Positions 4,947 to 63,965 of a stretch of DNA of 64,000 bases are shown piece by piece. Location: the NCBI GenBank assembly GCA_023053575.1, contig JAKZAP010000016.1, positions 5,018,046 to 5,082,045 on the forward strand. Reading direction: 5' to 3'. The notes under the pieces are model-generated. The model was not told the origin of the DNA. It worked only from the letters and a program-made list of their open reading frames with translations, and searched no databases. The position numbers and the translations under genes are program-made. The DNA comes from Branchinecta lynchi. Taxonomy: Eukaryota; Arthropoda; Branchiopoda; Anostraca; Branchinectidae. Numbering within the stretch: the first letter of the stretch is position 1; every line of letters starts with the position of its first letter.

Positions 4947-5148
4947 TTCAAACAATGTTTACAACGGATACATCAGCTACGATTCTTCGTGAGCGATATT
5001 TCGGCCCTTCTTGGCAAGGGTCCTCGTCAGGCTGTCAAATCCTCTGGTTCAACTTCGGGGAAGGAAACAAACCTGTAACAGAATCGTAGTTGTAAACATT
5101 GTTTGAATAAATGTTTCAAAGTCAACTTGGGCTCAAAGAATATTTGTT
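4947..5148 (-). mobile_element. Hammerhead short retroelement, copy P1 (202 bp)
   Basis: The insertion is bounded by a perfect 12-bp direct repeat, CACTCATATATA, at 4935-4946 and 5149-5160. Both ends carry the same element terminus in opposite orientations: ATTCAAACAATGTTTACAA on the left and TTGTAAACATTGTTTGAAT on the right, the right one continuing into TTGGGCTCAAAGAATATT. The body between them, read on the minus strand, contains TTTCCTTCCCCGAAGTTGAA and then the hammerhead-like motif. The structure fits a target-primed retroelement insertion related to Penelope-like elements or retrozymes. It lies inside the LMAN1-like intron. Confidence 0.85.
4991..5034 (-). ncRNA. Hammerhead ribozyme-like motif in P1
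   Basis: On the minus strand, in order: helix I strand CAGC; core CUGACGA; helix II made of GG-(A)-CCCUU, loop GCCAAG and AAGGGCC (7 bp with one bulged A); core GAAA; helix III of two base pairs written as the palindrome AUAU; cleavage triplet AUC; helix I strand GCUC (3 of 4 paired). All universally conserved core bases are present. The two-base-pair helix III is the minimal form known from Penelope-like elements. Activity is untested. Confidence 0.7.
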
Positions 5149-5302: not shown

Positions 5303-6300
5303 TCATTCACGAACAGTATTGAACGGTGGCGGAAGTATATACTTATGGATAGGGTGCTCAAGCATTTTCTTACCGGAAGCCATGCACAGTTTCAACCTAC
5401 GGGACTCAAGGGACCCGAGTTTAAATTTCTGAAGGAGCTCATTGTAAGGAATCTTGGGGTATCGTGACATAATTAGTAGAGCACGTTTCTGATTTGTTTC
5501 AGAATCAGAATCATTTATTTTACACAAGCTATCGTAGTCAAGCAGAGACTCAACTAAATGGCGCTTGGGCTTCCGATAAGCCTGATCTTCAGTAAGGCCG
5601 AAGTGCCAAGCTTCCACCAGTTATTCTAGCCCCGAACGTATAAAAGAAACATAAAAACGGAGCAAATCTTGTTCAGGGAACCTATTTCTAGCAAGTAATT
5701 TCAGCATATGAAGGCCGGTGTGTCCACGCTTTACCATTTCCTTGGTTTGGAGTTCCCATTTTAAATCGTTTGATATAATTAGACCGAGGAGTTTTATTTG
5801 GTTTACGCGCAAGGTATCTGGAATAGGAGGTTCAAAAATTGGCCCTTCTTTTAGGAAAGCAATTGTAAGAATGGCAGACTTCTTTTCATTCACTGCCATG
5901 TCTGAATTTAAAGCTTCGTGCTTTATCTGCGAAATTATATTGGCAGCTTTTGTCCTTTTTCACATATTTCAATAAGAGAAAGATCGTCTTCGTATTTCCA
6001 TCTTTCTGGTCTGTCAGAAGCTGTATTGTTAATCATTACAAGAAAAGTAGCGGACCTAAAATTGTTCCCTGTGGCACACAGCAGAAAATTGCCTGCGGGT
6101 CGACAGATTATTATTACATTTTAGAATTTGAGACCTGTCACTCAAAAATCCTACAATAACTTTTACAATATTGGGGACTAACGTTAAATTCATTCGAAAG
6201 TTTATCAATTTGAATATTATGGTTTATAAGGTAAAACCTTTTTTAAAATCAATCGCGATTGAATTGATCCATTTGGAGGGTTCATCAATGTTTTTAAAAA
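5303..6300 (-). pseudogene. Degenerate non-LTR retrotransposon reverse transcriptase
   Basis: Read on the minus strand, this region shows RT motifs in the correct order but in shifting frames: AIDFKKGF (motif A region, about 6257-6234), GFLSDRSQ (about 6150-6132), PQGTILGPLLF (motif B, about 6074-6042), YEDDLSLIEI (motif C, catalytic YxDD-like, about 5995-5973), then LRVNQIKLLGLIISNDLKW and the thumb and C-terminal region ending near 5303. There are at least two frameshifts, and an in-frame TAA at 5618-5620 splits the C-terminal part into two open pieces (5899-5621 and 5617-5303). The motif wording resembles CR1/L2-like clades, but I cannot place it firmly. It is a dead 5'-truncated copy within the LMAN1-like intron. 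Confidence 0.8.
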
Positions 6301-11026: not shown

Positions 11027-11222
11027 TGGTGGGTTTAGACACTGCTTAAAATCCGAGCGTATTTTACGCACGTTTTGAGCCTGAAAAGATTTCTAACAAT
11101 ACGGACGTATGTAGATACAGAACGGACCGATTTCTCAAATACGTCCGTATTGCTAGAAATGTTTTCAAACTCAAAGCGTGCGTAAAATACGCTCGGATTT
11201 TACGCAGTGTGTAAATGCACCA
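11027..11222. mobile_element. 196-bp foldback MITE
   Basis: Almost the whole element folds on itself. The left arm from 11027 (TGGTGGGTTTAGACACTG, then AAAATCCGAGCGTATTTTAC) is mirrored by the right arm ending at 11222 (GCGTAAAATACGCTCGGATT, ending AAATGCACCA). It is flanked by TCA on both sides, a possible 3-bp duplication. Non-coding. Confidence 0.6.
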
Positions 11223-14273: not shown

Positions 14274-16460
14274 TCAGTGTATTTTTGGGATCCCAAAACG
14301 TAAGTGGAAGCATACCTATGCCATCGCAAAAGTTGTCCGTCTGTGCGCACAGTAACTCTCGAAGGGAATGAGATATGTTGATGAAACTTGGTGTGAGGAT
14401 TCTTTGGGTCAAGAGTAAGGTCAATTTCGTAGATGGGCTATTTAGCCCTACATTTAGGGGTGGGGGAGGGGTTTCAGATTAAGGGGCAAATTTAGTATTT
14501 TTAAACAGATAATGTGATAGTTGATTATGGGGTAAGAAGACATGTTGAACACGATGGTGAAAACCATTTTGTCATCGGAAAAGTAGTTCGCCCGGAATCC
14601 GGCCAAAACCGGAAAGTTTGTTAAAAGTAAAAGTTTTATTTAAAGTTGATTAGATGTTCGGTTCAAGGGTAAGAAGACATGCTAAACACGATGGTGAAAA
14701 TCGTTTTATCGTCGGACAAGTAGTTAGCGCAGAATCTGGCCAAAACCGGAAAGTCTGTTAAAAGTAAAAGTCTTATTTGAAGTTGATTAGATGTTCGATT
14801 TAGGGGTAAGAAGCCATGCTGAACACAGTGGTGAAAACCATTTTCTCGCCGAACAAGTAGTTCGCCCGGAGTCCGGCCAAAACCGGAAAGTCTGTTAAAA
14901 GTAAAAGTCTTATTTGAAGTTGATTAGATGTTTGATTTAGGGGTAGGAAGCCATGCTGAACACAATGATGAAAACCATTTTCTCACCGAACAAGTAGTTA
15001 GCCCGGAATCCAGCCAAAACCGGAAAGTTTGTTAAAAGTAAAAGTTTTATTTGAAGTTGATTAGATGTTCGATTCAAGGGTAAGAAGACATGCTAAACAC
15101 GATGGTGAAAATCGTTTTATCATCGGACAAGTAGTTAGCCCAGAATCCGTCAAAACCGGAAAGTCTGTTAAAAGTAAAAGTCTTATTTGAAGTTGATTAG
15201 ATGTTCGATTTAGGGGTAGCCATGCTGAACACAATGATGAAAACCATTTTCTCGCCGGACAAGTAGTTCGCCCGGAATCCGGCCAAAACCGGAAAGTTTG
15301 TTAAAAGTAAAAGTTTTATTTGAAGTTGATTAGATGTTCGATTCAAAGGTAAGAAGACATACTAAACACGATGGTGAAAACCGTTTTATCGTCGGACAAG
15401 TAGTTAGCCCAGAATCCGTCAAAACCGGAAAGTCTGTTAAAAGTAAAAGTCTTATTTGAAGTTGATTAGATGTTTGATTTAGGGGTAGGAAGCCATGCTG
15501 AACACAATGATGAAAACCATTTTCTCACCGAACAAGTAGTTCGCCCGGAATCCGGCCAAAACCGGAAAGTTTGTTAAAAGTAAAAGTTTTATTTGAAGTT
15601 GATTAGATGTTCGATTCAAGGGTAAGAAGAATGCTAAACACGATGGTGAAAATCGTTTTATCATCGGACAAGTAGTTAGCCCAGAATCCGTCAAAACCGG
15701 AAAGTCTGTTAAAAGTAAAAGTCTTATTTGAAGTTGATTAGATGTTCGATTTAGGGTTTGGAAGCCATGCTGAACACAATGATGAAAACCATTTTCTCGC
15801 CGGACAAGTAGTTCGCCCGGAATCCGGCCAAAACCGGAAAGTTTGTTAAAAGTAAAAGTTTTATTTGGAGCTGATTAGATGTTCGATTTAGGGGTAAGAA
15901 GACATACTGAACACTTATGTCAAAACAATTTTCTACCCAGACAAGTAGTTCGCCCGGAATCCGGACAAAACCGAAAATTGGTAAAAGTTAGAGGTTTATT
16001 TGTAGTTGATTAGATATTCGATTTAGGGGTAAAGAGATGGTGAATCCGTGTATGACAATCATTTTTTACCCGGACATATAGTTCGACGGGAATCCGGCTG
16101 GAGCCGGAAAATTTGTTATAAGTTGAATTTTTATTTGAAGTTGATTAGATGTTCAATATTGGGGAAAGAAGATACGCTGAGTCCGTTTTTGAGCTTTCTT
16201 TTTTCGCCAGAAAAATAGTTCCGGAATTCGGCCGAAACCGGGAAATTGGCAGAAGTGGCAGGAAGTTTTCGTCAAAACAGAGATGGCTTATAGGGGTAAA
16301 ACACATGCTGATTCAATACCTGAACTTGTTTTTCTCAGATGAAGATTCTCAGAATTTTAATAGTACAAATGTTCAAGAAGACTGGATCTGGCGAAGACAA
16401 GACCCAATTGTCTGGATCAAATATTGAATTTTTGGGATCCCATCGAAACCTTTGGTCTTG
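14274..16460 (+). mobile_element. Family A repeat element, copy 2 (longest core)
   Basis: Complete element. Head TTTTTGGGATCCCAAAACG, then CATCGCAAAAGTTGTCCGTC, the GATGAAACTTGGTGTGAG box, the polypurine GGGGTGGGGGAGGGG block, twelve or so 137-bp core units (14541-16172), a distinct sub-tail, and the terminus TTTTTGGGATCCCATCGAAA, CCTTTGGTCTTGTT. The head and tail both contain the palindrome TGGGATCCCA. No reading frame of note. Confidence 0.85.
14541..16172 (+). repeat. 137-bp tandem array with alternating unit types
   Basis: The CATGCT landmark recurs at 14541, 14678, 14815, 14952, 15089, 15221, 15358, 15494, 15630, 15766 and 15903, that is every 137 bp with small indels. Two subtypes alternate: type a has CTAAACACGATGGTGAAAAT and TTAGCCCAGAATCCG; type b has CTGAACACAATGATGAAAAC and TTCGCCCGGAATCCGG. 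Between about 15089 and 15900 they run a-b-a-b-a-b, which is a dimeric higher-order repeat of about 273 bp. Each unit carries the imperfect palindrome CCGGAATCCGGCCAAAACCGG. Confidence 0.85.
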
Positions 16461-16881: not shown

Positions 16882-17031
16882 CACTGTGAAACAAAAATCT
16901 TGCAGTATTTGCTACTGGGATTAATCTTGTCTCTAATGAGATAAGTTTGTCTCTAATTCGGTATCCAAGTAGAGATAAGATTAATCCCAGTGACAAATAC
17001 TGCAGTTAACTTTAATCCTTATTCGGAGAAA
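16882..17031. mobile_element. MITE family M, copy 3
   Basis: Left end after TA is CACTGTGAAACAAAAATCTTG. The interior holds the paired blocks GCTACTGGGATTAATCTTGT and GATAAGATTAATCCCAGTG, then CAGTTAACTTTAATCCTTAT. The right terminus is eroded. Confidence 0.65.
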
Positions 17032-17897: not shown

Positions 17898-17958
17898 ATA
17901 TTCCTTCAGCCCAAGCTGACGGCGAATCATATTTTGCTCCGTTTTGCACCGTCAATAT
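17898..17958. mobile_element. Hammerhead-family retroelement terminus, copy P2 (61 bp)
   Basis: A 61-bp insertion flanked by the 11-bp direct repeat GCTAAGCTAAA (17887-17897 and 17959-17969). The first part, ATTCCTTCAGCCCAAGCTGA followed by CGGCGAATCATATTTT, is the common terminus of the short-retroelement family. The second part, CTCCGTTTTGCACCGTCA, is the next stretch of the same terminus in reverse orientation. The inverted-arm plan is thus kept even in this minimal copy. Confidence 0.75.
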
Positions 17959-22315: not shown

Positions 22316-22410
22316 AAATATTCCTTCAGTCCAAGCTGACTGCGAATCATATTTGATTCGATTCATATTTGAATCATATTTGAATCATATTTGAATCATA
22401 TTTGATTCAA
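22316..22410. mobile_element. Hammerhead-family retroelement terminus, copy P3 (95 bp)
   Basis: Flanked by the perfect 14-bp direct repeat TATAATGTAGTTTT (22302-22315 and 22411-22424). It begins with the family terminus AATATTCCTTCAGTCCAAGC, TGACTGCGAATCATATTTGA. It then turns into an 11-bp tandem repeat of GAATCATATTT (about five units) ending ATTTGATTCAA. The tandem is made from the element's own sequence. Confidence 0.8.
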
Positions 22411-32069: not shown

Positions 32070-32341
32070 AAATAGCCTGCTCCTTGAGCCCAAGCTGACT
32101 GGGAAACATATATTTTCATACAATACGTAAAACGGATACGTCAGATACGGTACAATGCTTTGGCAGCGATATTTCGGCCCTTCTAACGAACCTGCCTGAT
32201 AGCAGGCTGGTTTCTTCCCGAACGTTGTCTCTGACATTCAACAGCCTGACGAGGACACTTGCCAAGAAGGGCGGAAATTTCGCTGCCAAAGCATCGTATC
32301 GGAGCTGACGTATCCGTTTTATGTATTGTTTGCATACCGGC
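32070..32341 (+). mobile_element. Hammerhead short retroelement, copy P4 (272 bp)
   Basis: Bounded by a perfect 13-bp duplication, TACGAAACATAGT (32057-32069 and 32342-32354), and splits a tandem repeat. The arms are inverted copies: ACGGATACGTCAGATACGG, CTTTGGCAGCGATATTTCGG on the left; GCGGAAATTTCGCTGCCAAA, GAGCTGACGTATCCGT on the right. The body has CTGGTTTCTTCCCGAACGTT and then the hammerhead-like motif. The left arm also contains the 3' half of a motif in reverse. Confidence 0.85.
32242..32285 (+). ncRNA. Degenerate hammerhead-like motif in P4
   Basis: Keeps helix I (CAGC/GCTG), CTGACGA and GAAA. Helix II is damaged (GGACACTTGCCAAGAAGGGCG) and helix III reads ATTT instead of ATAT, losing one of its two pairs. 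Probably inactive. Confidence 0.55.
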
Positions 32342-33084: not shown

Positions 33085-34095
33085 AATTTTTGGGATCCCA
33101 AAACGTAAGTGGAGGGAGACCTATGACATCGCAAAAGTTGTCCGTCTGTCCGTCCGTCCGTCTGTAAGCACGATAACTCTGGAAGGGAATGAGATATTTT
33201 GATGAAACTTGGTGTGAGGATTCTTTGGTTCGTCAGACCAGTCGAGTTCGTAGATGGGCTTTGTAGCCCTACATTTAGGGGTGGGGAGGGGGTTCAAATT
33301 AAGGGGCAAACAAAATATTTTGAAACAGCTAATGTGATAGTCGATTGTGGGGTAAGAAGGCATGCTGAGCACGATGGTGAAAACCATTTTGTCATCGGAC
33401 AAGTAGTTCGCCCGGAATCCGGCCAAAACCGGAAAGTTTGTTAAAAGTAAAAGTGTCATTTGAAGTTGATTAGATGTTCGATTTAGGGGTAGGAAGACAT
33501 GCTGAAGACGATGGTGAAAACTATTTTCTCGGCTAAGACAAGTAGTTCGCCCGGAATCCGGTCCAAACCGGAAAATTGCTAGAAGTTAAAGTTTTATTTC
33601 TAGTTGATTAGATAACCGATTTAGGGGTAGGAAGAGATGCTGAACCCGTGTGTGACAATCATATTTTACCCGGACATATAGTTTGATCGGAATCCGGCCG
33701 GAGTCGGAAAATTTGTTATAAGTTAAATTTTTATTTGAAGTTGATTAGATGTTCAGTATTGGGGAAAGGACATACCCTGAGTTCGTTTTTTCAGCTTTCT
33801 TTTTTCGCCGGACAAGTAGTTCTGGAGTTCGGCCGAAACCGGGATATTGGCAGAAGTGGCAGGAAGTTTTCGTCAAAACAAATGTGACTTATAGGGGTAA
33901 ACACACATGCTGAATCCATATCTGAACTTGGTTTTCTCAGATTATTAGCTATTTGGCCTTAATCTGTTTCTGAATTTGAATTGTAAAAATGTTCAAGGAG
34001 TCTGGCGATGACTGGATCTGGCTAAGACACGACCGAGTTGTCTGGATTAGATATTGAATTTTTGGGATCCCATCGAAACCTTTGGTCTTGTTGTT
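33085..34095 (+). mobile_element. Family A repeat element, copy 6 (complete)
   Basis: Well-preserved head (TTTTTGGGATCCCAAAACG, TATGACATCGCAAAAGTTGT), microsatellite CCGTCTGTCCGTCCGTCCGT, box GATGAAACTTGGTGTGAGGA, polypurine block, four or five core units, and tail ending TTTGGGATCCCATCGAAACC, TTTGGTCTTGTT. A good reference copy for the family's ends. Confidence 0.85.
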
Positions 34096-35952: not shown

Positions 35953-37393
35953 TACAATTAAGCCCGCCTCTCGCGTCGTTTGTGATTGGTCAGACTGTAT
36001 TATGGACTGGCGGACTGCACAAACTAATCAGATCCAATGTTTATTTGCGATGTAAGCACATTGTACGAGTAAATGCATAAGAAATGACTTATTTTCTTCC
36101 GCGAAATTTGAACTTTAATTCAGCAACTGTATGCTCGCGGTGGGAAATTTGCTCTTCCTGTGCTCTTCAGTGAACCTTTAACGATCTAATGTCCCTATAA
36201 TAATCATATTCTATAATAATCATAATCGTATTCTTAATAATCATACGTTTAGCTCTTTCAGTTGGTTTGGGAAGCTTAACAAGGCTATGAGGTTAGCTGA
36301 AGGGTTTCTGTTTGGTATTTAGCAATTGTTCAGTAGTTACACCGTATGTGTTGCTTCCGTCTTTGATTCTAGAATATTTATACAGTTTTTGATTATATCA
36401 CGTAATATTATTTTTTTTTTTTTACTTTTCACACACTAGGAATTGATGGAGTACAAACCAGAAGAAATCCAAACACAGATAAAATCGCGCTAAAAAGAAA
36501 GAAATCACACTTAAAAAGAGAACTTAATCACAGTATAGGCTACGGATTTGAACAATACAAAAAAATGCAATCTTTTGGTACTCATGGCCCCCCTGTTTGC
36601 AACAGCTCATCCAGTTTTGGAATCGGGTCAGCAGTCCTTACTTTTTTTTGTCATTTAGGGATTTCGCGTCGTAGACCGTTTTGCGTACTTGAAATAAACG
36701 TGTTTGTTAGCTTTGTTTTGTAGCAATAGACCTGCAAGGTGTTGGGCAAGTTTTTTTCTCAAAGCTTTTCCTCTTCTTGAATTCGAAATTATCTCTGTGG
36801 ACTTACTTATGGGCGTATCGGTCGTTTTCACCATACATGTAACTTCTCGATATTCATTATTATGGTCTCTATATGGGCTGGTTCTTTGGAGCCTTGGGCG
36901 ATGGATGACGTTTCGAGTGAATGTTGTTTTAGTAAACATATGTGGCTTGAACTGCTAAGTTCGGTTTCGTGTCGTTTTGGGAGAGTTGAAATTTGGTGCT
37001 AATCTATGATTTGAAGGAGAACTATTGAATCCCTGCGCGTCCAAAGCAAGCTAAGCTGGAATTGGAACGAGTCAATAGGAGGTTTGTCATAGGGCTGCTT
37101 TTTGAATCTTGAGTGCTCAAGTTGGTTCCTTGCCAGGAAGAAGTCCCGAACGGACACAAAGAAGCGTTAAACGTGCCTCTTCAGAAGCAGCAGACTGACC
37201 GTTCCACTCAGTTGTGAGATTCTTCGGTCACCCATTAGACGTCTGCTAAAGAAGAACCAATATAATTTTGGTAGATATTCGTTCAGGCAAGCTGACTGCG
37301 AACCATATTCGACGGTGCAAAACGGATAAGTCTTTCCAGCTAGTATGAATACTTGTCGGCATTTCTGGGCTATTGGAGTTCCTACTTGGAGGA
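35953..37393. other. No firm gene; unassigned small ORF and a partial P-family terminus
   Basis: The minus strand at 36939-36655 has an open frame rich in Lys/Arg (SRRGKALRKKLAQHLAGLLL, then a stop) preceded by a plausible acceptor (CTTAGCAG). It could be a terminal exon, but I do not recognise it. At about 37282-37335 there is a partial short-retroelement terminus (GGCAAGCTGACTGCGAACCA). Confidence 0.3.
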
Positions 37394-37538
37394 TAAAAAT
37401 TCCTTCAGCCCAAGGTGACTGCGAATCATATTTGATAGTGCAAAACGGATACGTCAGCTGAATTTTATTGGATCTATATTTCGACGCTTCTTGGCAAGGG
37501 TCCTCTTCAGGCTCAAAACCGCTCAAGTTGGAAAAACG
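37394..37538 (-). mobile_element. Hammerhead short retroelement, copy P5 (145 bp)
   Basis: Flanked by an imperfect 11-bp duplication, TACTTGGAGGA and TACTTGTGGGA. Starts ATTCCTTCAGCCCAAGGTGA, CTGCGAATCATATTTGATAG, then CAAAACGGATACGTCAGCTG and the reversed hammerhead motif, ending CTCAAGTTGGAAAAACG. Same subtype and length as the copy at 63820. It has a single arm and no inverted duplicate. Confidence 0.65.
37471..37514 (-). ncRNA. Hammerhead-like motif in P5
   Basis: Minus strand: core CUGAAGA and GAAA intact, helix III AUAU palindrome intact, cleavage-site base A. Helix II (GG-A-CCCUU with AAGCGUC) has one mismatch and one G-U pair. Helix I is weakly paired (GAGC/GAUC). Confidence 0.45.
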
Positions 37539-38663
37539 TACTTGTGGGAAACACTTAGGACTTACCCGTTTTATATTTTATATATAATATAATTTTTATT
37601 TTTGTATGGTCGGGAATTGCTCCTGGTGAGGAGAGATTTGGTGGTTCGCTAATTAAAGATTTGCGAAAGAGCCTGTTTTCCCACAATCGTCAGAAGTTCG
37701 TCACACATTTTGTTTTTGTTGGGGGGCGGTTGGATATTTTTCCCATCGAATCGTTGTGCAGATTGGAAGATCAATAAGGCCACTTCTCTCTCTTAAGAAA
37801 AATTGAGTGACAACTTACTTCCGGATTAGTTTTGGCTATACCCTGAAAAGAGGACTTTCTCTTTGTGCTAATAAAAACAAAATAGTAAAAAGTGAACTAA
37901 TTTGATCTAATTTACTAATTAGACCCAAGCTTTGATGCTAATTAGAAAAATTAAAAATAAGAAGTGAAGTTCAGTGTAAAAAATTGAACTAATTAAATTT
38001 AATGAAGCGTTCCGAAAAGGAGATTGATATTACAGTCATGTTATTAGTAGAAGCAGGCTGCTTTTCTAGTTCTTTAACGGTGCCATTTCCTTCGTCTTTT
38101 TGCGATTGAAGTCAACTAATCATGGGTCAGACTAATGACTAATGATTACTTCCTTGAGTTTTCCTAAGAAGGCTTTGAGGGGTCGTTTTTTTTTGCCTTT
38201 TCTCATTGGTGTCAGAAAAACTATATTGGCTTTTCGGGGCTAGAGAAGTCGTTGAGCTTTTCTGAGTAAATACGTTTTATAGATATCAATGAGCAAAAAA
38301 AAAAAAGCAAGTCAGACCCTGTCATGGTTCCTAATGATTGTTTTAAGCGGAACGTTACGCGTTTATACTATCTTGACATGACCTATGGCGTGTGTATATG
38401 AGTGACTAAATTTTACCCAAAAAAGCCCGTGGGCCATGAAACAAAATAAAAGACACCAGAAAAGAAAACCCTAACCCCAGAATACGCTGTCGATGCTCCA
38501 GAGCCTGCTTGAGGAACCTCTAGAGCTGATGAAGGTGCCTAAGATTTATTTAACTCCGTGCAGTCTTGATTTATGGCCTCTTGTTCGAAGACAAGAACAA
38601 GAAAAGCAGGATCTCTGTTCTGGCATATTTATCCTTCTTCCTCCTTGACAAATTTCCATATTC
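37539..38663. other. No gene recognised
   Basis: AT-rich, with A and T runs (for example 12 A at about 38296). No repeat family or coding signal seen. Confidence 0.3.
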
Positions 38664-41572: not shown

Positions 41573-42395
41573 CTAACCCGACTTAGTGCCTTCTTTTTAT
41601 CGTGAGTGTGAACTTGCAAAACTAACTCTAAACCCGCAAAAGTGTAAAGTGATTCGATTCAACCCGCTGAAAAGTGAATTCAATGAGCCTGATTCTATAT
41701 TTAATATGGTTAAGAGTCATACTTTGTTGGGTGTCACTTTCACCGAAGATTGCAAATTCAGTGACCATGTTTGCAACCTCGTGAAGAAAGGGAACGCTGC
41801 ACTCCAGTCCATCACGACAATGAAGCGATTTGGATTCGGTGTCGAATCTTTGAAGTTAGCTTATGTGACATACGTGCGACCGCTACTGGAGTATGCCTGC
41901 CCAGTTTGGGGACCCTTTGTGCAAAGAAGCATACAACATAAGGAAGAGATTGAATCACTGCAAATCAGAGCGTGCCGCATTATGCTAGGGCAGAAATACA
42001 ATGGTTACGAAGCTTCCCTCCTCCTATTAAGACTTGAGCCACTCCATGTCCGCCGGGAAAATTTAATTTTACGTTTTGGTCGATCAATCCTTGCCAGTGA
42101 AAAACACAGAGATATTCTGCCCGATCTAGCACCGGTGACAGGACGGACACGGCATCAAAATCTCCTTGTGCCAGTTAAATGTCGCACAAACCGGTATTCA
42201 AATTCCTTTGTACCATATTTTACTGAGAAGATTAACAAAAAACAAGTGAATTCTAAGTGATCTATTTTCTTTTATCTAATAATTGTATATATTCAAGTAT
42301 TTTACTCAGTTATTCAAGTATTTAAATGTAATGGTCGACGTATTTAGTGCCATGTCGGCGCTACGAGTTGAATCAATAAACATATCTATCTATCT
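41573..42395 (+). mobile_element. 5'-truncated LINE insertion with 11-bp target duplication
   Basis: Flanked by GAACGATTTTT at 41562-41572 and 42396-42406. The insert starts inside RT-coding sequence, ends with ATCAATAAACATATCTATCT and an (ATCT)n tail, and is 823 bp long. 5' truncation, target duplication and a 3' microsatellite tail together are the signature of target-primed reverse transcription by a non-LTR retrotransposon. Confidence 0.85.
41576..42260 (+). CDS. Non-LTR reverse transcriptase C-terminal part (one uninterrupted frame)
   Basis: Reads without a stop for about 228 codons. Visible blocks: RECELAKLTLNPQKCKVIRF, which follows the catalytic YxDD in this family; LLGVTFTEDCKFSDHV; LKLAYVTYVRPLLEYACPVW (thumb region); IESLQIRACRIMLG; LEPLHVRRENLILRFGRSIL; and a C-terminal RTNRYSNSFVPYF block shared with the LINE end at 3020. 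The catalytic fingers and palm and any endonuclease are missing because the insertion is 5'-truncated, so it cannot make an active enzyme. The intact frame means the insertion is fairly young. CR1/Jockey-like by its C-terminus, not firmly assigned. Confidence 0.85.
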
Positions 42396-43110: not shown

Positions 43111-43122
43111 TGACTACCAAAA

Positions 43123-43354
43123 TTTATTCAAACAATGTTTACAAAGGATACGTCAGGTTTGTTTCCTTCCCCGAAGTAATCATGTTACAGGTTTGTTTCC
43201 TTCCCCGAAGTTGAACCAGAAGATTGACAGCCTGACGAGGACCCTTGCCAAGAAGGGCCGAAATATCGCTGATGAAAAATCATAGCTGACGTATCCGTTG
43301 TAAACATTGTTTGAATAAATGTTTCAAAGTCAGCTTGGGCTCAAAGAATATTTT
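43123..43354 (+). mobile_element. Hammerhead short retroelement, copy P6 (232 bp, best preserved)
   Basis: Perfect 12-bp duplication TGACTACCAAAA (43111-43122 and 43355-43366). The left arm is ATTCAAACAATGTTTACAAA, GGATACGTCAG. The right arm is the mirror: CTGACGTATCCGTTGTAAAC, ATTGTTTGAAT, continuing TTTCAAAGTCAGCTTGGGCT. The body repeats GGTTTGTTTCCTTCCCCGAA twice (43158 and 43192), then holds the intact hammerhead motif. No ORF. Confidence 0.9.
43228..43271 (+). ncRNA. Hammerhead ribozyme-like motif, all core bases intact (P6)
   Basis: Helix I CAGC/GCUG, four perfect pairs (43228-43231 with 43268-43271). Core CUGACGA at 43232-43238. Helix II 43239-43259: GG-(A)-CCCUU, loop GCCAAG, AAGGGCC. 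Core GAAA at 43260-43263. Helix III is AU/AU, two pairs with no loop. Cleavage predicted after C43267 (AUC|G). Type I topology. Such a short palindromic helix III is usually weak as a monomer and more active as a dimer or in circular RNA. Confidence 0.75.
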
Positions 43355-43366
43355 TGACTACCAAAA

Positions 43367-46700: not shown

Positions 46701-47216
46701 ATATCCGGCATAAAGTCTGGAACGTATTTACTTTGTCGTTTCTGGAAACCTTTGAACGGCTGTGTGTTATCCTTAACTTTGTGGACGCTTAGTTATGTTG
46801 TTTCCAAACACCCGCTAACGCCAAAATAGAAAAGAAAGGAGGTTCTGTACTGCAAATTGTGAAACGTCAGTTTGAAGCCAAAAGAGTATCAACTTGATTA
46901 TTTATTTGTCTGAGGCTATGTAGCGTTACCCCCCCCCCCTCCAAAAAAAAAGGTTGAATTAATGTATTTCTGGAAAAAGCCCAGGAGCAAGGGCTCAGCT
47001 CTGGGCTCAGTGCCCCTACGAAAATCTATTTGAAAAGAAATTTCCATTTAAGATTTTCGTTTTTTTCCTTTTTTCTCGAGAAAATTTAATTGGGGATTAG
47101 CGTATGAGTGATTACTACCCCTGGTAGTTACCACATCGATAGACGGATAACAATTTTATGATCCTCCTATTCTGACGGAAGGGGAAGTCCCATGAAAGCA
47201 GGGGTACAGCCCAGTC

Positions 47217-47328
47217 ATACATAAATCCTCAGTTTTTGGGCACAGTAGCCTACTCCAGCCTCCAGCGTTAGGATAAGCCCTGGAGCAAGGGCACATTAAC
47301 CCCGTACCATCATACTGTTCATACTCCA
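47217..47328. repeat. Segment duplicated inside the P7 insertion
   Basis: CATACATAAATCCTCAGTTT through CATACTCCA. A 105-bp version with small deletions lies at 47613-47717, exactly between the inverted arms of P7. Confidence 0.8.
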
Positions 47329-47567: not shown

Positions 47568-47811
47568 AATATTCAAATCATGCATAAAACGGATATATCA
47601 GCTACGATGCTTCATACATAAATCCTCAGTTTTTGGGCACAGTACTCCAGCCAGCGTTAGGACAAGCCCTGGAGCAAGGGCACATTAACCCCATAACATC
47701 ATACTTTTCATACTCCAGAGTATTGTAGCTGACATATCCGTTTCATGCATTATTTGAACATATGTTTCAAAGTCAGCTTGGGCTCACTCAAGGAATATTT
47801 ACCTATTGTTT
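47568..47811. mobile_element. Short retroelement P7 (244 bp) with captured local sequence
   Basis: Perfect 12-bp duplication CCTATTGTTTGA (47556-47567 and 47812-47823). Inverted arms: CATGCATAAAACGGATATAT, CAGCTACGATGCTT on the left; GTATTGTAGCTGACATATCC, GTTTCATGCA on the right, running on to AGTCAGCTTGGGCTC. Instead of the hammerhead body, the arms enclose a copy of sequence found 0.4 kb upstream. Confidence 0.85.
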
Positions 47812-48852: not shown

Positions 48853-49866
48853 TTTTTGGATCCCAAAACGTAAGTGGAGGGATACCTATGACATCGCAAA
48901 TGTTGTCCGTCTGTGGGCTCTATAACTCTCGAAGGGAATGAGATATTTTGATGAAACTTGGTGTGAGGATTCATTGGGTCAAGGGTAAGGTCAATGGGAT
49001 CTGTAGCCCTACATTTAGGGGTGGGGGAGGGGGTTCAAATTAAGGGACAAACAAAATATATTAAACAGCTAATTTGATAGTCGATTATGGTGTAAGAAGG
49101 CATGCTGAGCACGATAGTGAAAACCATTTTCTCGTCGGACAAGTAGTTCGTCTGGAATCCGGAGAAAACCGGAAAGTTGGTTAAAAGTAAAAGTTTATAT
49201 GAAGTTGATTAAATGGTCGATTTAGGGGTAAGAAGACATGCTGAACGCGATGATGAAAACCATTTTCTCTCCGAACAAGTAGTTCGTCGGGAATCCGGCA
49301 AAAACTGGAAAGCTGGTTAAAAGTAAAAGTTTTATTTGAAGTTGATTAAATGTTCGATGTAGGGGTAAAAAGACACGCTGAACACGATCGTGAAAACCAT
49401 TTTCTCGCCGGACAACTAGTTCGCCCGAAAACCGGCCAAAAATCCGGAAAGTTTGTTAAAAGCAAAAGTTTGATTCGATGACAGATTAAGGGGTAAGAAG
49501 AGAGGCTGAGTCTGTGTATCACAATCATTTTTCAACCGGACATATAAGTAAAAGGCAAACTTTTATTCAAAGTTGATTAGATGTTGTATTTGTTCCAACA
49601 TCAACGACGCTGGATTTGTTTCTGAATTTTCTTTTTTTGCTAGACTAGTAGTTTACTCGGGATTCGGGCGAAACCGGAAACTTGGCAGAAGTAAAGCAGG
49701 AAGTCTCGGTCAGTATCGTCAAAATAGATATGGCTTATAGAGGTATATCTGAACTTGGTTTTCTCTGATGATTAGCCTGTCCAAGACTGGATCTGGCGAA
49801 GACAAGACCCACTTGTCTGAATTAAATATTAGATTTTTGGGATCCCATCGCACCTTTGGTCTTGTT
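48853..49866 (+). mobile_element. Family A repeat element, copy 9, inserted in family E
   Basis: Head TTTTTTGGATCCCAAAACG, microsatellite reduced to a single TTGTCCGTCTGTGG, box GATGAAACTTGGTGTGAGG, three core units, sub-tail and terminus TTTTGGGATCCCATCGCACC, TTTGGTCTTGTTG. Flanking E sequence resumes directly (GTCGTTTT on the left, TAGTTATCGTGGT on the right), giving clear element ends. Confidence 0.8.
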
Positions 49867-50035: not shown

Positions 50036-51952
50036 TATGGCACTTGCCCTTCGGCCAAGTGCCATATAGCGATCGCAATTTCTGTCCGTCCGTCGGTCTG
50101 TCGGTCTGTCGGTCTGTCCAGGTTTTGCTAGTTCGGGCACTTCCACATAAGCTAGGATGATAAAACTTGGCAGGCATATCAGGGACCCCAAATGATTAAG
50201 TTGGAAATAGTCACTTCCCCGATCCGAGCACCGTGGGGGGAGTGGAGGGAGGGGGAATCCGGAATCTTGAGGTATTTTTAACTTTTGAACGGGTGATCGG
50301 ATCTCGATGAAACTTGATATTTGGAACGACCTCATGCCTCAGACGACCCACTTAAAATCCGGACCGGATCCGGTGACTTTTGGGGGAAGCTGGAGGGGGC
50401 AACCGGAAATCTTGGGAAACGCTATGAGTGGAGGGATCGAGATGAAACTTGGTGGGAAGACACCTAGCAAACACTAGATACATCGTTGACATAACCGAGC
50501 CGATTCGGGCACTGTGGGGGGGAGTGGAGGGAGGGGGAATCCGGAATCTTGAGGTATTTATAACTTTTGAACGGGTGATCGGATCTCGATGGAACTTGAT
50601 ATTTGGAAAGACCTCATGCCTCAGACGACCTACTTAAAATCCGGACCGGATCCGGAGACTTTTGGGGGGAGCTGGAGGGGGCAACCGGAAATCTTTGGAA
50701 ACGCTATGAGTGGAGGGATAGAGATGAAACTTGGTGGGAAGACACCTAGCAAACACTAGATACATCATTGACATAACCGAGCCGATTCGGGTACTGTGGG
50801 GGGAGTAGAGGGAGGGGGAATCCGGAATATTGAGGTATTTATAACTTTTGAACGGGTGATCGGATCTCGATGGAACTTGATATTTGAAAAGACCTCATGC
50901 CTCAGACGACCTACTTAAAATCCGGACCGGATCCGGTGACTTTTGGGGGGAGCTGGAGGGGGCAACCGGAAATCTTGGGAAACGCTATGAGTGGAGGGAT
51001 CGAGATGAAACTTGGTGGGAAGACACCTAGCAAACACTAGATATATCATTGACATAACCGAGCCGATTCGGGTACTGTGGGGGGAGTAGAGGGAGGGGGA
51101 ATCCGGAATCTTGAGGTATTTATAACTTTTGAACGGGGGATCGGATCTCGATGGAACTTGATATTTGGAAAGACCTCATCCCTCAGATGACCCATTTAAA
51201 ATCTGGACCGGATCCGGTGACTTTTGGGGGGAGCTGGAGGGGGCAACCGGAAATCTTGGGAAACGCTATGAGTGGAGGGATAGAGATAAAACTTGGTGGG
51301 AAGACACCTAGCAAACACTAGATACATCATTGACATAACCGAGCCGATTCGGGTACTGTGGGGGGAGTAGAAGGAGGGGGAATCCGGAATCTTGACGTAT
51401 TTATAACTTTTGAACGGGTGATCGGATCTCGATGGAACTTGATATTTGGAAAGACCTCATCCCTTAGACGACCCACTTAAAATCTGGACCGGATCCGGTG
51501 ACTTTTGGGGGGAGCTGGAGGGGGCAACCGGAAATCTTTGGAAACGCTATGAGTGGAGGGATCGAGATGAAACTTGGTGGGAAGACACCTAGCAAACACT
51601 AGATACATCATTGACATAACCGAGCCGATTCGGGCACTGTCGGGGGAGTGGAGGGAGGGGGAATCCGGAATCTTGAGGTATTTATAACTTTTGAACGGGT
51701 GACCGGATCTCGATGAAACTTGATATTTGGAAAGACCTCATGCCTCAGACGACCCACTTAAAATCCGGACCGGATCCGGTGACTTTTGGGGGGAGCTGGA
51801 GGGGAGAACCGGAAATATTGGAAAACGCTATGAGTGGAGGGATCGAGATGAAACTTGGTGGGAAGACACCTAGCAAACACTAGATATATCATTGACATAA
51901 CCGAGCCGTGCCTACTCGTAACAAGTGCCATATGAGCTCGTAGCTCTTGTTC
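50036..51952 (+). mobile_element. Family B repeat element, longest copy, inserted in family E
   Basis: Starts with a perfect hairpin TATGGCACTTG...CAAGTGCCATA (50036-50066), then TAGCGATCGCAATTTCTGTC and microsatellite CGTCCGTCGGTCTGTCGGTC. The core is six 281-bp units. The tail is CAAGTGCCATATGAGCTCGT, AGCTCTTG. Head and tail share the CAAGTGCCATA block. Non-coding; short frames repeat once per unit. Confidence 0.85.
50210..51895 (+). repeat. 281-bp tandem array, six units
   Basis: GACATAACCGAGCCG recurs at 50488, 50770, 51051, 51332, 51613 and 51893 (spacings 280-282). Units are nearly identical, with the landmarks GGGGGAATCCGGAATCTTGA, GAACGGGTGATCGGATCTCG, AAATCCGGACCGGATCCGG and GATGAAACTTGGTGGGAAGA. 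The high identity shows recent amplification or homogenisation. Confidence 0.9.
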
Positions 51953-54520: not shown

Positions 54521-55990
54521 AACCGACGCTGTGCCGTCCGAAAAACTTCCGGCCCTTTTCTGGAAAGCTATAGAAGGAGTAGAAAGTATATGACAAATCG
54601 ATAAGGCTTTCTGCCCTTTGTGCGAGTAGGGATTGTCAGTCTGATCATCCGACCGCAAATGACGGATCACCCAAACTGACTCCAACTTTCCTCTCTCGTA
54701 TATTCGGAAGAGAAAGGGATGAAGGGGTTTTCATGGCATGAATCCATCGTTCCAGTGCATTTGGAACACTGGTATTTTATCGTTCGGGCCTCTGTCTTGG
54801 TTGTGATTCAGCGTAGGCGGATCTCTTCAGTTCAGTTCAATATTATCTAGAAACAGATAACGGACAAGCCGATGGGTTGTTTTTGCGTTAAAACATAACG
54901 TCATAACATAACAGTCCACAAGTATATACAATTTTGCGTCATTTCTACTTTTTATGTTGACATAGAATTTGTAAGAGACTTTAACCCCTCGCACTATTTA
55001 CTGGTCCAGTATTTTAAAATAGTTAATACATTAAAGCTAGGTTCTGCTTTGAACAAACAACCACGGCTTTGGGTGTTTTAAGCAATTCTTCGGGCCCGCT
55101 GAATTCTAGCAAAAACGGGGCAAAACAGCAAAAACAACACATAAAAGGTTTAAATGCTTGCGCAAGCTATATACTAACTCGATGGTATTGATTTTAGTAT
55201 CATGTTTAGTGCGTGTATATATTTTCTTTAGTCTCTTTTCTTCTTTTCTTTTTCTTTATGTACCTACTCCGCTTTTTCCTTTTCATAAAAGAATAGAAAA
55301 CCGTGATTTTTCGGGTTTTTTTCTTGACCATCTAATTTCCCTCTAGGATGATGTGCGAGGGATAAGTATAAATTCGGATGAGAGCAATCCCGGTTTTCTG
55401 TTTCTTTCGTAATGAATGGCTTCAAACCTTATATTTTTCCTTTTTATAAGCGGGCAAAAATAAATAAATATATATATATATATATACAAAAATTAGTCAA
55501 AACGGACAAGTCAGCTGCAGTATTCTTCATCGATATTTCGCCCTTCTTGGCTCTTCCAACTTCCAACAGTGTAGGTAACATGTCCGAAGAGAAGGTGCTG
55601 GAGTAAATTTGGGGTTGCCGCTGACAGATTAGGAAATACTTTTAAAGCAATAAATTAGGTGGATTTATTCACCTCTTGTGCTTCTCCGTCAACTTGCCAG
55701 TCCCGAAAAAAGCTTATGCCAGAGTTACATTTGGTAATGCCGATTCACTCGTGGACCATTGGGAAATGACACACGCGTTTTGAAACTCGAGATCTTGCGC
55801 TGTAACGTGATTCCAGGAACCATTCGGTAGCGGTCGACACTTTTTGGTTTAAGAGCGCCAAGGGGCTTCGCTTTATCCCTGGCTCAACCTGCCGCGTCTT
55901 AAGTGAAACGAGCTTTTCTTTGGTTTTACGAAGCACGTTTGGATCGCGTACGATCACCTCGCAAAGCGACGTAACGGATCGCTCCTCAAC
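54521..55990. other. No gene; partial P-family terminus and AT microsatellite
   Basis: A TA run lies at about 55470-55487. Immediately after, AAAACGGACAAGTCAGCTGC, ATCGATATTTCGCCCTTCTT and GGCTCTTCCAACTTC (about 55498-55567) match the short hammerhead retroelement in reverse. It is truncated within the hammerhead motif and I found no target duplication. Confidence 0.45.
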
Positions 55991-59149: not shown

Positions 59150-61505
59150 AGACTGGAAATCCGACGGGAAACTTTTTACTGCACCTGGCTTATTTCCCCT
59201 GCTTCCAGATTTGGTAATCGTACCCGTCCGTGCACATGCCATTGTGATATCTGTGACTATTTACTCAGGCAGTGGAATTGACTTGGCTTACTTAGGTGTG
59301 ACTACCCCCTTGTTCTATAACATTTACTTTCGAAAATATCATTTTCTGGCAGTCTCCTGCCATTTCCGGGCAATTGATCCGAGTTTGTTCTAGATTCGGA
59401 ATCGACAATCATACCAGTGTAGATGCCGCCTTGCAGGCTGTGATGAATTTTATTTTGCTTAGCGAAGAAGTGTTACAACCCCCTTTTCTAAAACACTATC
59501 TTCCGAAAGTGTAATGTTTTGGCAGTCTCTTGCCACATCCAGACAATGTATCACTGATGTTGTTCCAGATTCCGAATCGACAATCATACTCGTTTATCTG
59601 ACATCTGGCTGCCTGTGGTGTATTTTACTCAGCTCCTGAGGCGAGGTGTTACGACCCCCTTTTCTAAAACACCAACTCGGAAAATGTCATTTACTGCGAA
59701 ACTCTTGCTACTTCCGGGCAGTGAATCCGGATTTTGCTCCAGATTTGGAATCGACAGTCATACCGTTACCACTGTGCAGCCAGTGATGGTTTGCTTAGCT
59801 CACGTAAGCAAGAAATGTGGCGAACACTTTCGCTAAATATACTTTTCTTGCATTTTCCTACCACGTCCGTACGTATTTGTTCCAGATTCGGAATCAGTAA
59901 TCATACCCATCCACATGTCATCTGGCTGCCTGTGGTGGATTTTACTCAGCTCCATAGGACACGACCCCTTTTTAAAAACAAGACCAAAGGTTTCGATGGG
60001 ATCCCAAAAGTTCAAATTTGATCCAGATCCAGTCTTCGTCAGACTCCTTGAACACTTTTACTGTTAAAATTTTGAAAAATAAGGCAAAATAGCTAATCAT
60101 ATGAGAAAACCAAGTTCAGATATGGACTCAGCATGTGTGTTTACCCCTTTAAGTCATACCTATTTTGACGAAGCAGATCGCAACTTCCTGCCTTGCTTCA
60201 GCAAATTTTCCGGTTTCGGCGGAATTCCGGAACTACTTGTCCGGCGAAAAAATAAAGCTCAAAAACGAGTTCAGCATGTTTCCTAACCCCTACATCCAGC
60301 CTATAATCAACTTCCAATTAAACTTTTACTCCTAACAAATTTTCCGGTTTCAGCCGGATTCCGAGCGATCTATACGTCCGGTGAGAAAATGGTTGTCATA
60401 TGCGAATTCAGCATGTCTACTTACCCGCAAATCGAACATCTTATCAAATTTAAAGAAAACTTTTACTTTAAACAAATTTTCCGGTTTTGGCCGGATTCCG
60501 GCTGAAATAATTGTCTGGCGAGAAAATAATGTTCATATTCGGACTCAGCACGTTTCCTTGCCCCTAAATCGAACCTCCAGTCAACTTCATATTACTTTTC
60601 ACAAATATTCGGGTTTTCGCCGGATTCCGGGTGAACTATTTGTCCGGCGAGAAAATAAATTTCATATTCGGATTCAGCATGTCTCCTTACCCCTAATTCG
60701 ACTATTTTATTAGCTTTTTAAAAATATTTTTTGTTCCCCTTAATTTTAAACCCCTCCCCCACCCCTAAATATAGAGCTACATAGCCCATCTCCGAACTTG
60801 ACCTGTACTTTGACCTAAAGAGTCTTCATGCCAAGTTTGATCAAAATATCTCAACCCCTTTGAGAGTTATCGTGCTAACAGACGGACGGACGGACGGACA
60901 ACTTTACGATGTCATAGGTATCCCTCAACTTACGTTTTGGGATCCCAAAAACAACTTGAAAACGGCATTTACTGAGAATCTCCTGCCACTTTCGGGCAGT
61001 GGATCCAGACTTACTGATTATTTTTGTATATAACTTCAGGAGTACTACATACTACACTGGTCTTGGTTTTTTAATTTATTTGTACTTATAATAAACAGTT
61101 CGAGTATTAGATGGAATTTATTATTTTGATCCTTGGCTCCCTACGTGCCATAAGGGCTGTCCCGGATAATCGGCTGAGATTTAGTCCAGACCGAATTATT
61201 TCAAACCTAGGGAATTTAGTTTGTGTTTTTAATTTGCGGTTTCGAACATTCATAGTGGCGGTAGGGATGGTTATAAATGTGTGCGTGGTAGACAGACCAT
61301 TTCTTGTGGTCCGCTTTAAGCAATAAAAGTGGCGACCAGTTTTGCTAAATATACTTTTCTTGCATTCTGCTACCACGTCCGTACGTATTTTGTTCCAGAT
61401 TGGGAATCGGTAATCATACCCTTCCACATGTCATCGTGCTGGCTGTGATGGATTTTACTTGGCTCCTTAGGCAAGAAGTGTGACGACCCCCTTTTGCTAA
61501 GTGGA
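59150..61505 (+). repeat. Family G tandem repeat, about 140-185-bp unit, split by a family A element
   Basis: Landmark TTCCAGATTCGGAATCGACA or variants at about 59205, 59390, 59568, 59738, 59880 and 61393, with GTGTTACGACCCCCTTTTCT, TTACTGCGAAACTCTTGC and TTCCGGGCAGTGAATCC blocks in each unit. Broken at 59975-60952 by family A copy 10; the interrupted unit resumes at AACTTGAAAACGGCATTTAC. Confidence 0.65.
59975..60952 (-). mobile_element. Family A repeat element, copy 10 (reverse, complete), inserted in family G
   Basis: Reversed tail AACAAGACCAAAGGTTTCGA, TGGGATCCCAAAAGTTC; five core units with TTTCCGGTTTTGGCCGGATT; reversed polypyrimidine block; microsatellite GACGGACGGACGGACGGACA; reversed head CAACTTACGTTTTGGGATCC. 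Flanks are TTTTTAAAAACA on the left and AAAACAACTTG on the right, so insertion was into an A-rich site of a G unit. Confidence 0.85.
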
Positions 61506-63819: not shown

Positions 63820-63965
63820 CAAGTATTCCTACAGCCTAAGCGGACTGCGAATCATATTTGATGGTGGTAAACGGGAAGGTCAGCTGAGATTTAACTGGCG
63901 ATATTTCGGCCCTGCTCGGCGAGGGTCCTCTTCAAGCTCAAGCTGGAAATACGAATCTGCGACCA
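63820..63965 (-). mobile_element. Hammerhead short retroelement, copy P9 (146 bp)
   Basis: Flanked by GACATGTCA at 63811-63819 and 63966-63974. Begins GTATTCCTACAGCCTAAGCG, GACTGCGAATCATATTTGAT, then the reversed hammerhead motif, ending CTCAAGCTGGAAATACGAAT. Same one-armed subtype as P5. Confidence 0.7.
63896..63939 (-). ncRNA. Hammerhead-like motif in P9 (core substitution)
   Basis: Minus strand: UUGAAGA in place of CUGANGA (first core base lost), helix II still paired (GG-A-CCCU with AGGGCC), GAAA, AUAU helix III and AUC present. The loss of C3 predicts an inactive ribozyme. Confidence 0.45.

Follow-up and report, generated by a model that had tools for sequence, protein, structure and literature searches.

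Short hammerhead-bearing repeats in the Branchinecta lynchi genome as probable insertion products of a Penelope-like element

What kind of element is the 232-bp sequence at 43123-43354 (+) of the window, the 64-kb stretch of Branchinecta lynchi DNA analyzed here, and how did it come to be inserted? The first-pass annotation of this DNA had placed it, with four other copies, in a family of tiny non-coding retroelements. Its basic observation, that short repeats bearing ribozymes occur in the window, is upheld overall and extended below; its interpretation of the repeats is supported in part. Penelope-like elements (PLEs) are retroelements that remain poorly understood, and although the kind of element described here is already known, its many short copies provide an unusually clear record of PLE insertion. 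The element consists of an inverted partial pseudo-LTR, then a pseudo-LTR containing the ribozyme, then a tail. Its left arm (43123-43156, -) is an inverted copy of 43286-43319, lacks the tail, and begins at what would be a first reverse transcription start site. The tail itself (43319-43354, +; MFQSQLGLKEYF) comprises the first codons of a PLE ORF that continues in other copies, and it ends at a putative second start site. A box located 5' of the ribozyme is present as an internal direct repeat (43154-43177 and 43188-43211, +), and a flanking-repeat search places a 12-bp target-site duplication (TSD), TGACTACCAAAA, at 43111-43122, with its exact repeat at 43355-43366.

The ribozyme had been described as a hammerhead with helix I CAGC/GCUG, the box CUGACGA, a helix II with one bulged A, then GAAA and UAUC, and all of these are found as claimed at 43228-43271 (+). 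The further claim that it is a minimal type I hammerhead of the PLE type is borne out by a complete core and a four-pair helix I, and the cut is predicted after C43267. A descriptor built from CUGANGA, helix II, GAA-A, the U-H step, and a helix I with four or more pairs matched this place alone on the two strands of the window; the number of chance matches expected per window, estimated from 150 Markov-1 sequences, is 0.0067 with a 2-nt loop and 0.027 with all allowed loop sizes. Unconstrained RNA folding of the 44 bases from 43228 to 43271 returns helices I and II with both core strands single-stranded and the bulged A of helix II present (MFE equal to centroid, z -2.5, 5 of 200 shuffles equally good), and the conserved core with both helices in type I order recurs in a set of 97 copies from the window and other loci. 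In the genome as a whole (576 Mb), a 35-nt ribozyme pattern has 5716 + 5804 = 11,520 exact matches and its reversed control has 0, which together with the expectation of the descriptor scan rules out a chance hammerhead. Exact-pattern scans of genome-contig and viral-contig collections, which may omit the Branchinecta lynchi genome itself, gave 0 matches. The comparison with Rfam that the first-pass annotation had proposed was negative, as no hammerhead family matched in the window at the thresholds used; Rfam hammerhead models expect a full helix III.

The five copies listed in the first-pass annotation do exist, and they are unequally preserved. In the element at 4947-5148 (+; TSD CACTCATATATA) the ribozyme (4991-5034, -) lies in the inverted left arm, with its core intact and a weaker helix I that is one pair short, and in the element at 32070-32341 (-; TSD ACTATGTTTCGTA) ribozyme sequence is found in both arms, the copy at 32242-32285 (+) carrying GAAAUUUC and a further 3' half lying at 32164-32185 (-). 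Decayed ribozymes are seen at 37471-37514 (-), in a partial-tandem element (37270-37585, -; TSD AAAATTATATT) with tails at 37394-37420 and 37270-37298, and at 63896-63939 (-), in a single-arm element (63820-63965, -; TSD TGACATGTC, 9 bp and weak). The size of 145-272 bp given earlier holds for the listed copies with the exception of 37394, which sits within a 316-bp element, and sizes bounded by flanking repeats in the window run from 61 to 316 bp. To these can be added several features missed before: a two-arm element with the ribozyme absent (47568-47801, +; TSD CCTATTGTTTGA), a 61-bp element with a tail (17898-17958, -; TSD TTTAGCTTAGC) whose short left arm is seen by eye only and does not exceed shuffles, a tail end with internal ATATGATTCAA repeats (22316-22410, -; TSD AAAACTACATTATA), the second tail at 37270-37298, and a ribozyme 3' half (55528-55549) which, with the post-ribozyme region, makes up a fragment at 55501-55551 (-) for which no TSD was found.

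Nine tails are thus placed in the window, eight taken from 11 tail-search hits (34388, 41036, and 63434 being excluded as weak) and one, 37270-37298, from self-BLAST. They define eight elements, and all eight are flanked by exact direct repeats, of 12, 12, 12, 13, 11, 9, 11, and 14 bp. At random positions outside tandem arrays, repeats of at least 11 bp were found in 1.7% and of at least 9 bp in 5.9% of 20,000 trials, rising to 6.9 and 11.9% with tandem arrays included; the 9-bp repeat of 63820 is therefore weak taken alone. Inverted arms stand clearly above 200 shuffles in 43123, 47568, and 32070 and marginally so, as aligned, in 4947 (27 against a maximum of 26); the signal in 22316 is marginal and due to the internal repeats, and in the remaining three of the eight (37280, 63820, and 17898) the arms did not exceed the 200 shuffles.

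The tails are what tie these elements to something larger. An ATG stands at the same place, within one base, in 9/9 window tails and opens M(F/I/V)xSQLGLKEY-like codons, the frame being broken in two of the nine (37280 and 63820). Hence the description of the elements as non-coding is not wholly right, since their tails are the first 11-12 codons of a PLE ORF. The frame runs on as LSTKYGT(F/C)TAQTC in L047, L049, L103, L104, and a few other loci, and in L047, L049, and L103 (lineage A of two ribozyme lineages) as well as L007 and L028 (lineage B) the continued ORF soon joins another pseudo-LTR, yielding internally deleted units in which two hammerhead-like motifs are spaced 248 (L047), 335 (L049), or 355 nt (L028) apart. 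The 60-aa N-terminus of the ORF matched no Pfam family and no protein homologue, and its PDB hits, for the most part TAL/PPR repeat proteins, included none in which a stretch passed by itself.

A search of the organism's own genome (576 Mb in 216 contigs) with these 60 residues gave 1165 first-look candidates, of which 150 were scored; 18 of the 150 scored matches lie in an 863-aa open frame with no stops in the match, and some of these frames are 3,019-3,020 bp apart (contigs 8, 10, and 15) or head to head. At L123, the single locus read, hammerhead-bearing repeats with a spacing of 3,020 bp flank the 863-aa ORF (323-2914), whose ATG starts at the 52nd base downstream of the predicted cut. 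Of 7996 candidates scored, 30 were homologues of the L123 protein at E <= 0.001, the best reaching 2e-111 with 33% identity over 90%, and 24 of the 30 have a precomputed RVT_1 match. No Pfam family scored in the L123 ORF itself; two homologues, P0001 and P0015, match RVT_1, with GIY-YIG above the cut-off in P0015 and just below it in P0001. The DKG block is a hallmark of PLEs, and in an alignment of eight sequences including L123 the ADKG block is invariant; L123 also has RYVDD, and its C-terminal GIYSIPC...KRYVGRT (GIYSIPCDCGKRYVGRT) aligns with the GIY-YIG domain of P0015. By ADKG, RYVDD, the GIY...YVG module, and the RVT_1 homologues, L123 is, as judged from the alignment, an endonuclease-type PLE with a single ORF combining a PLE-type reverse transcriptase (RT) and a C-terminal GIY-YIG. 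A genome search with PF01541 found two places only (L031 and L032), with no evident PLE ORF among frames of at least 80 aa there. The proposal that the short elements are mobilized by a PLE, an autonomous one residing elsewhere, thus gains support from the 18 autonomous-looking frames in the same genome. Conversely, the repeats for the most part do not form a tiny-element family of their own but represent the pseudo-LTR and ORF start of the larger PLE, shortened and often doubled head to head. The label of parasites of a PLE could apply to the internally deleted units alone (L047, L049, L103, L007, and L028) and not to the rest.

Whether the same anatomy prevails beyond the window was examined on contig 1, using the first 30 ribozyme places, some of which are two ribozymes of one element, and 91 of 100 listed tail places; all of these lie on contig 1, so that the sample is not random. 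The 35-nt tail, with at most one mismatch, has 3778 + 3808 matches in the genome and its control 0. Among the 91 exact tails of contig 1, a TSD of at least 9 bp accompanies 56 and one of at least 11 bp 48, compared with 13 and 3 of 160 in a shifted-end control; for the other 35 of 91 no TSD of at least 9 bp was found within about 600 bp. Lengths of 9, 10, 11, 12, and 13 bp occur in 7, 1, 11, 25, and 11 of the 56 copies, and one 21-bp match looks spurious. An inverted pseudo-LTR arm directly abuts the left TSD in 45 of the 56 (no clear inverted arm was found in the other 11). Measured from the tail end, 44 of these arms have their start between -33 and -40 (20 of them at exactly -34) and one at -72; no arm starts at the tail end itself. 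The two ends of an element thus differ by about 34 nt, the tail being on one side, an asymmetry that is partly ascertained because right arms were found via their tails. Among the 30 ribozyme places, which were picked irrespective of the tail, a tail lies downstream in 13, an inverted tail upstream in 9, and neither within the searched range in 8; no TSD was found at these eight, and in one of them (L011) a stretch resembling an inverted tail lies some 700 nt upstream.

Inverted arms flanking several copies, together with a TSD mode of 12 bp, might call to mind a DNA transposon of the MITE or foldback kind, with terminal inverted repeats and a fortuitous hammerhead-like sequence. However, the TSD varies from 9 to 13 bp, the 34-nt tail is at one end only, the arms are unequal in length and content, and single-arm and partial-tandem copies occur. 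Such an origin is extremely improbable and is rejected on the variable TSD, the one-sided tail, and the start of an RT gene at the element end. Direct and inverted pseudo-LTRs with partial tandems, a one-end tail of 30-40 nt, and short, variable TSDs of 9-14 bp are instead features of a PLE.

The short elements are thus very probably insertion products derived from the pseudo-LTR and tail of an endonuclease-type PLE with long open ORFs in this genome, formed as two cDNAs from one RNA. The PLE RNA would carry a minimal hammerhead just 5' of the ORF, with a helix III of only AUAU, and the self-complementarity of AUAU suggests cleavage as a dimer or within tandem transcripts; tandem transcripts so cleaved would give 3-kb monomers beginning shortly before the ATG. 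The element protein, with its putative RT and GIY-YIG endonuclease, would cut the two strands of the target at positions about 9-14 bp from each other and begin reverse transcription at internal sites of the RNA, close to where the ORF starts. One target strand may prime after about codon 12, at the tail end, and the other roughly at the ATG, 33-40 nt earlier. Each cDNA would then extend back across the pseudo-LTR and terminate at a variable point, and the two would be joined head to head. The expected outcome is a small element with inverted arms, a single tail, and a target-site duplication. Since 44 of 45 left arms start 33-40 nt short and none has the tail, two cDNAs primed on both strands from one RNA are the simplest reading of the inverted arms. 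The two arms of a copy also share variants: in 45 copies picked irrespective of the partner arm, own pairs score 1515 in sum, above the maximum of 1421 reached by 10,000 permutations. The own partner is the strict best in 5 of these copies and, counting ties, the best in 20, because many copies are identical. An earlier comparison of 42 copies (1478 against a maximum of 1376) is less clean because copies had been selected by own-arm score, which favors matching arms.

This arrangement closely resembles PAc of Anolis carolinensis, a PLE of the Penelope/Poseidon type, for which priming on both strands at two internal start sites has been reported in vitro and which prefers AT-rich targets (PMC11167929). 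Common to both are a hammerhead near the ORF start, pseudo-LTR tandems, and two internal reverse transcription starts defining a tail. Likewise, in PAc the cut falls at +26 and reverse transcription starts at +111 to +118, 85-92 nt apart (PMC11167929), and here 87 nt separate the cut from the tail end, the presumed start. They differ in that the PAc ORF begins at stem II, with the cut 26 nt inside it, whereas here the entire ribozyme is 5' of the ATG, and in that the tail ends after about 37-39 codons in PAc and about 12 here. The Penelope elements of Adineta vaga provide a second parallel, with partial tandems, pLTRs in direct and inverted orientation, solo pLTRs, and an optional one-sided tail of 31 bp; some of the copies have TSDs of 8-10 bp, and foreign sequence has been trapped between pLTRs, albeit at low copy number in contrast to the thousands of short copies here (PMC3846280); the word hammerhead is absent from the main text of that paper. 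Captured sequence of this sort, as reported between solo pLTRs, resembles a case in the window, where the segment between the arms of the 47568 element (47612-47717) has 89% identity to a 110-bp segment at 47215-47328.

The authors of the Adineta vaga study favored self-priming on an antisense template and did not exclude a sense one (PMC3846280). Applied here, PLE insertion would stand and the inverted arms would arise by cDNA fold-back or copying of antisense RNA in place of priming on both strands. Palindromic or near-palindromic junctions in L042, L043, and L119, an observation of the sort behind that proposal (PMC3846280), agree with self-priming, as does an internal inverted tail in L055. 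Yet fold-back of a target-attached cDNA should put tail and flank at the outer end of the left arm, and simple fold-back is disfavored because the tail was never found there in 45 left arms; moreover, extension on both strands has been demonstrated in vitro for PAc (PMC11167929). Self-priming is accordingly quite unlikely to be the main source of the arms, and priming on both strands is preferred. In L055 an inverted tail and a piece of the ORF lie inside the element, an arrangement that the simple two-cDNA scheme does not predict and that does not fit it. L055/L056 (contig 1, 2665525-2665605) has two outward-pointing tails 11 bp apart with an inverted ORF piece alongside. In L030/L029 two direct-repeat ribozymes are 75 nt apart, the first ending in GAAATATCG right before a second box, which may reflect a template jump near the cut.

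Does the hammerhead itself take part? The 97 ribozyme copies, from the loci read and the window, comprise 82 of lineage A and 15 of lineage B; copies chosen by pattern have much of the core fixed. The block from CUGA to AUAU is near-uniform in the 97, and the two lineages share the same 35-nt consensus block except at position 7 and differ in their flanks. Position 17 is C in 80 copies, A in 13, U in 2, and G in 2. At the distal pair of helix I, lineage A has C-G and lineage B has G-C. Covariation in helices I and II, on which the first-pass annotation had staked its claim, is suggested to some extent for helix I and was not seen in helix II: pair 4 of helix I, mostly C-G or G-C, is paired at 0.825 (shuffles 0.617 on average, 0.722 at most) and pair 6 at 0.866 (0.663 and 0.742), most copies have a mismatch at pair 5 (paired 0.103), and no covariation signal was seen across the 97 copies in helix I pairs 1-3 or in helix II, which is nearly invariant. 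Relatedness is not taken into account in the shuffles, and only a few events may underlie the A/B contrast.

The places where cDNAs end offer a second line of evidence. When 46 TSD-bounded copies (including L084, whose 21-bp TSD is the one that looks spurious) are aligned to the natural template L103, and hand-copied arm ends are counted at template positions 150-262 only, which hold 45 of the 92 arm ends, 6 of the 45 fall on the first base after the predicted cut, compared with 0.40 expected and 3 at the next best position; ends at 142-148, where other copies diverge from the L103 template, were excluded. The six come from four elements only, and the element-level P for the cut position is 0.0008, or 0.086 counting all 113 positions. 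A looser count of 180 instances is less striking: the cut is only modestly enriched, with 3 instances at distance 15, of which two are arms of a single element, and others scattered over 11-26. L042 and L119 are palindromes joined exactly at the predicted cut, at separate sites with different TSDs. A control palindromic join at AUAU had 0 matches genome-wide, a figure for the control join alone that supports no run-off comparison. These cDNA ends hint at cleavage in vivo and are best regarded as a lead, not proof; in the literature on PLEs generally, as covered mostly by papers outside subscription journals, no mention of PLE cDNAs ending at the hammerhead cut was noticed. Cleavage cannot be obligatory, because many arms (27 left and 25 right of 46 copies) align through the ribozyme.

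Alternatively, the hammerhead may be an inactive relic conserved only through shared descent. That helix II does not covary agrees with this, and in PAc the RNA is inactive without protein and cleavage is dispensable for insertion in vitro (PMC11167929). Nevertheless, the two lineages have kept the 35-nt block, bar position 7, despite changed flanks, the distal helix I pair differs between them, position 17 varies among copies, and 6 of 45 cDNA ends fall at the cut, so that a mere relic is improbable.

The remaining alternative starts from the ribozyme: the elements could be retrozymes, an independent non-autonomous family spreading as small RNA circles made by the ribozyme, with a PLE supplying only the RT. 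The known animal non-LTR retrozymes are likewise small elements with a type I hammerhead that coexist with PLEs, and at about 170-400 nt they fit the sizes seen here (PMC7229834). The paired motifs of the internally deleted units, 248-355 nt apart, and the small number of cDNA ends at the cut are also compatible with this. However, the terminal sequence of the elements here is the start of an ORF belonging to a larger PLE in the same genome. Furthermore, the described retrozymes carry classical type I ribozymes in tandem repeats and have demonstrated circRNAs (PMC7229834), whereas here the ribozyme is of the minimal PLE type and lacks a helix III stem, an ORF start lies at one end, and copies are mostly single: in the loci read, 119 of 130 locus-strands have one ribozyme, 11 have two direct copies within 600 nt, and none has more. 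An independent retrozyme family is therefore unlikely. By ORF, pseudo-LTR, tail, and TSD the element is a PLE, and it departs in ribozyme type and array structure from the definition of a retrozyme, which calls for tandem repeats of 150-450 bp bearing a canonical type I hammerhead. By analogy, it would work as does a PLE whose minimal hammerhead is protein-assisted or dimeric. Such hammerheads, as described by Cervera in 2014 and Lunse in 2017, are reportedly borne by PLEs and cleave as dimers. Type I order, an almost nil helix III, high copy number, and association with PLEs are common to them, as summarized elsewhere (PMC7761336), and to the ribozyme here. The internally deleted units could nonetheless act like retrozymes. 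It is conceivable, if rather doubtful, that retrozymes are here born from a PLE by internal deletion, mini-PLEs with hammerheads 248-355 nt apart being cleaved in vivo into monomers, perhaps circles, and copied by the intact PLE; on this reading, ribozyme-made 5' ends would be visible as cDNA run-off points in the genome and would give the PLE hammerhead a long-sought role. The thousands of very short copies and the 18 or more long open frames of this family in one genome make it testable where each cDNA starts, from which strand, and whether it stops at the ribozyme cut.

The window holds further repeats. Two ORFs, 41577-42260 (+) and 5621-5959 (-), look like what we take to be C-terminal parts of non-LTR retrotransposon RTs; each lies within 0.9 kb upstream of an element, without Pfam support. 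Long palindromes at 11060-11189 and 16898-17008 gave weak scores for miRNA families, below the gathering score and on both strands; the best miRNA-like Rfam hits fall on palindromes and occur on both strands, and the two long palindromes are probably foldback repeats. What appears to be one satellite-like unit of 136-138 bp (GGGGTAAGAAGACATGCTGAAC...) forms dispersed arrays in both orientations at 693-1023, 14529-16180, 33342-33645, 49080-49475, and 60198-60701. Finally, a 281-bp unit is repeated in tandem at 50219-51908 (six copies, 95% matches), and similar sequence lies 5' of the ribozyme in L010 and L023.
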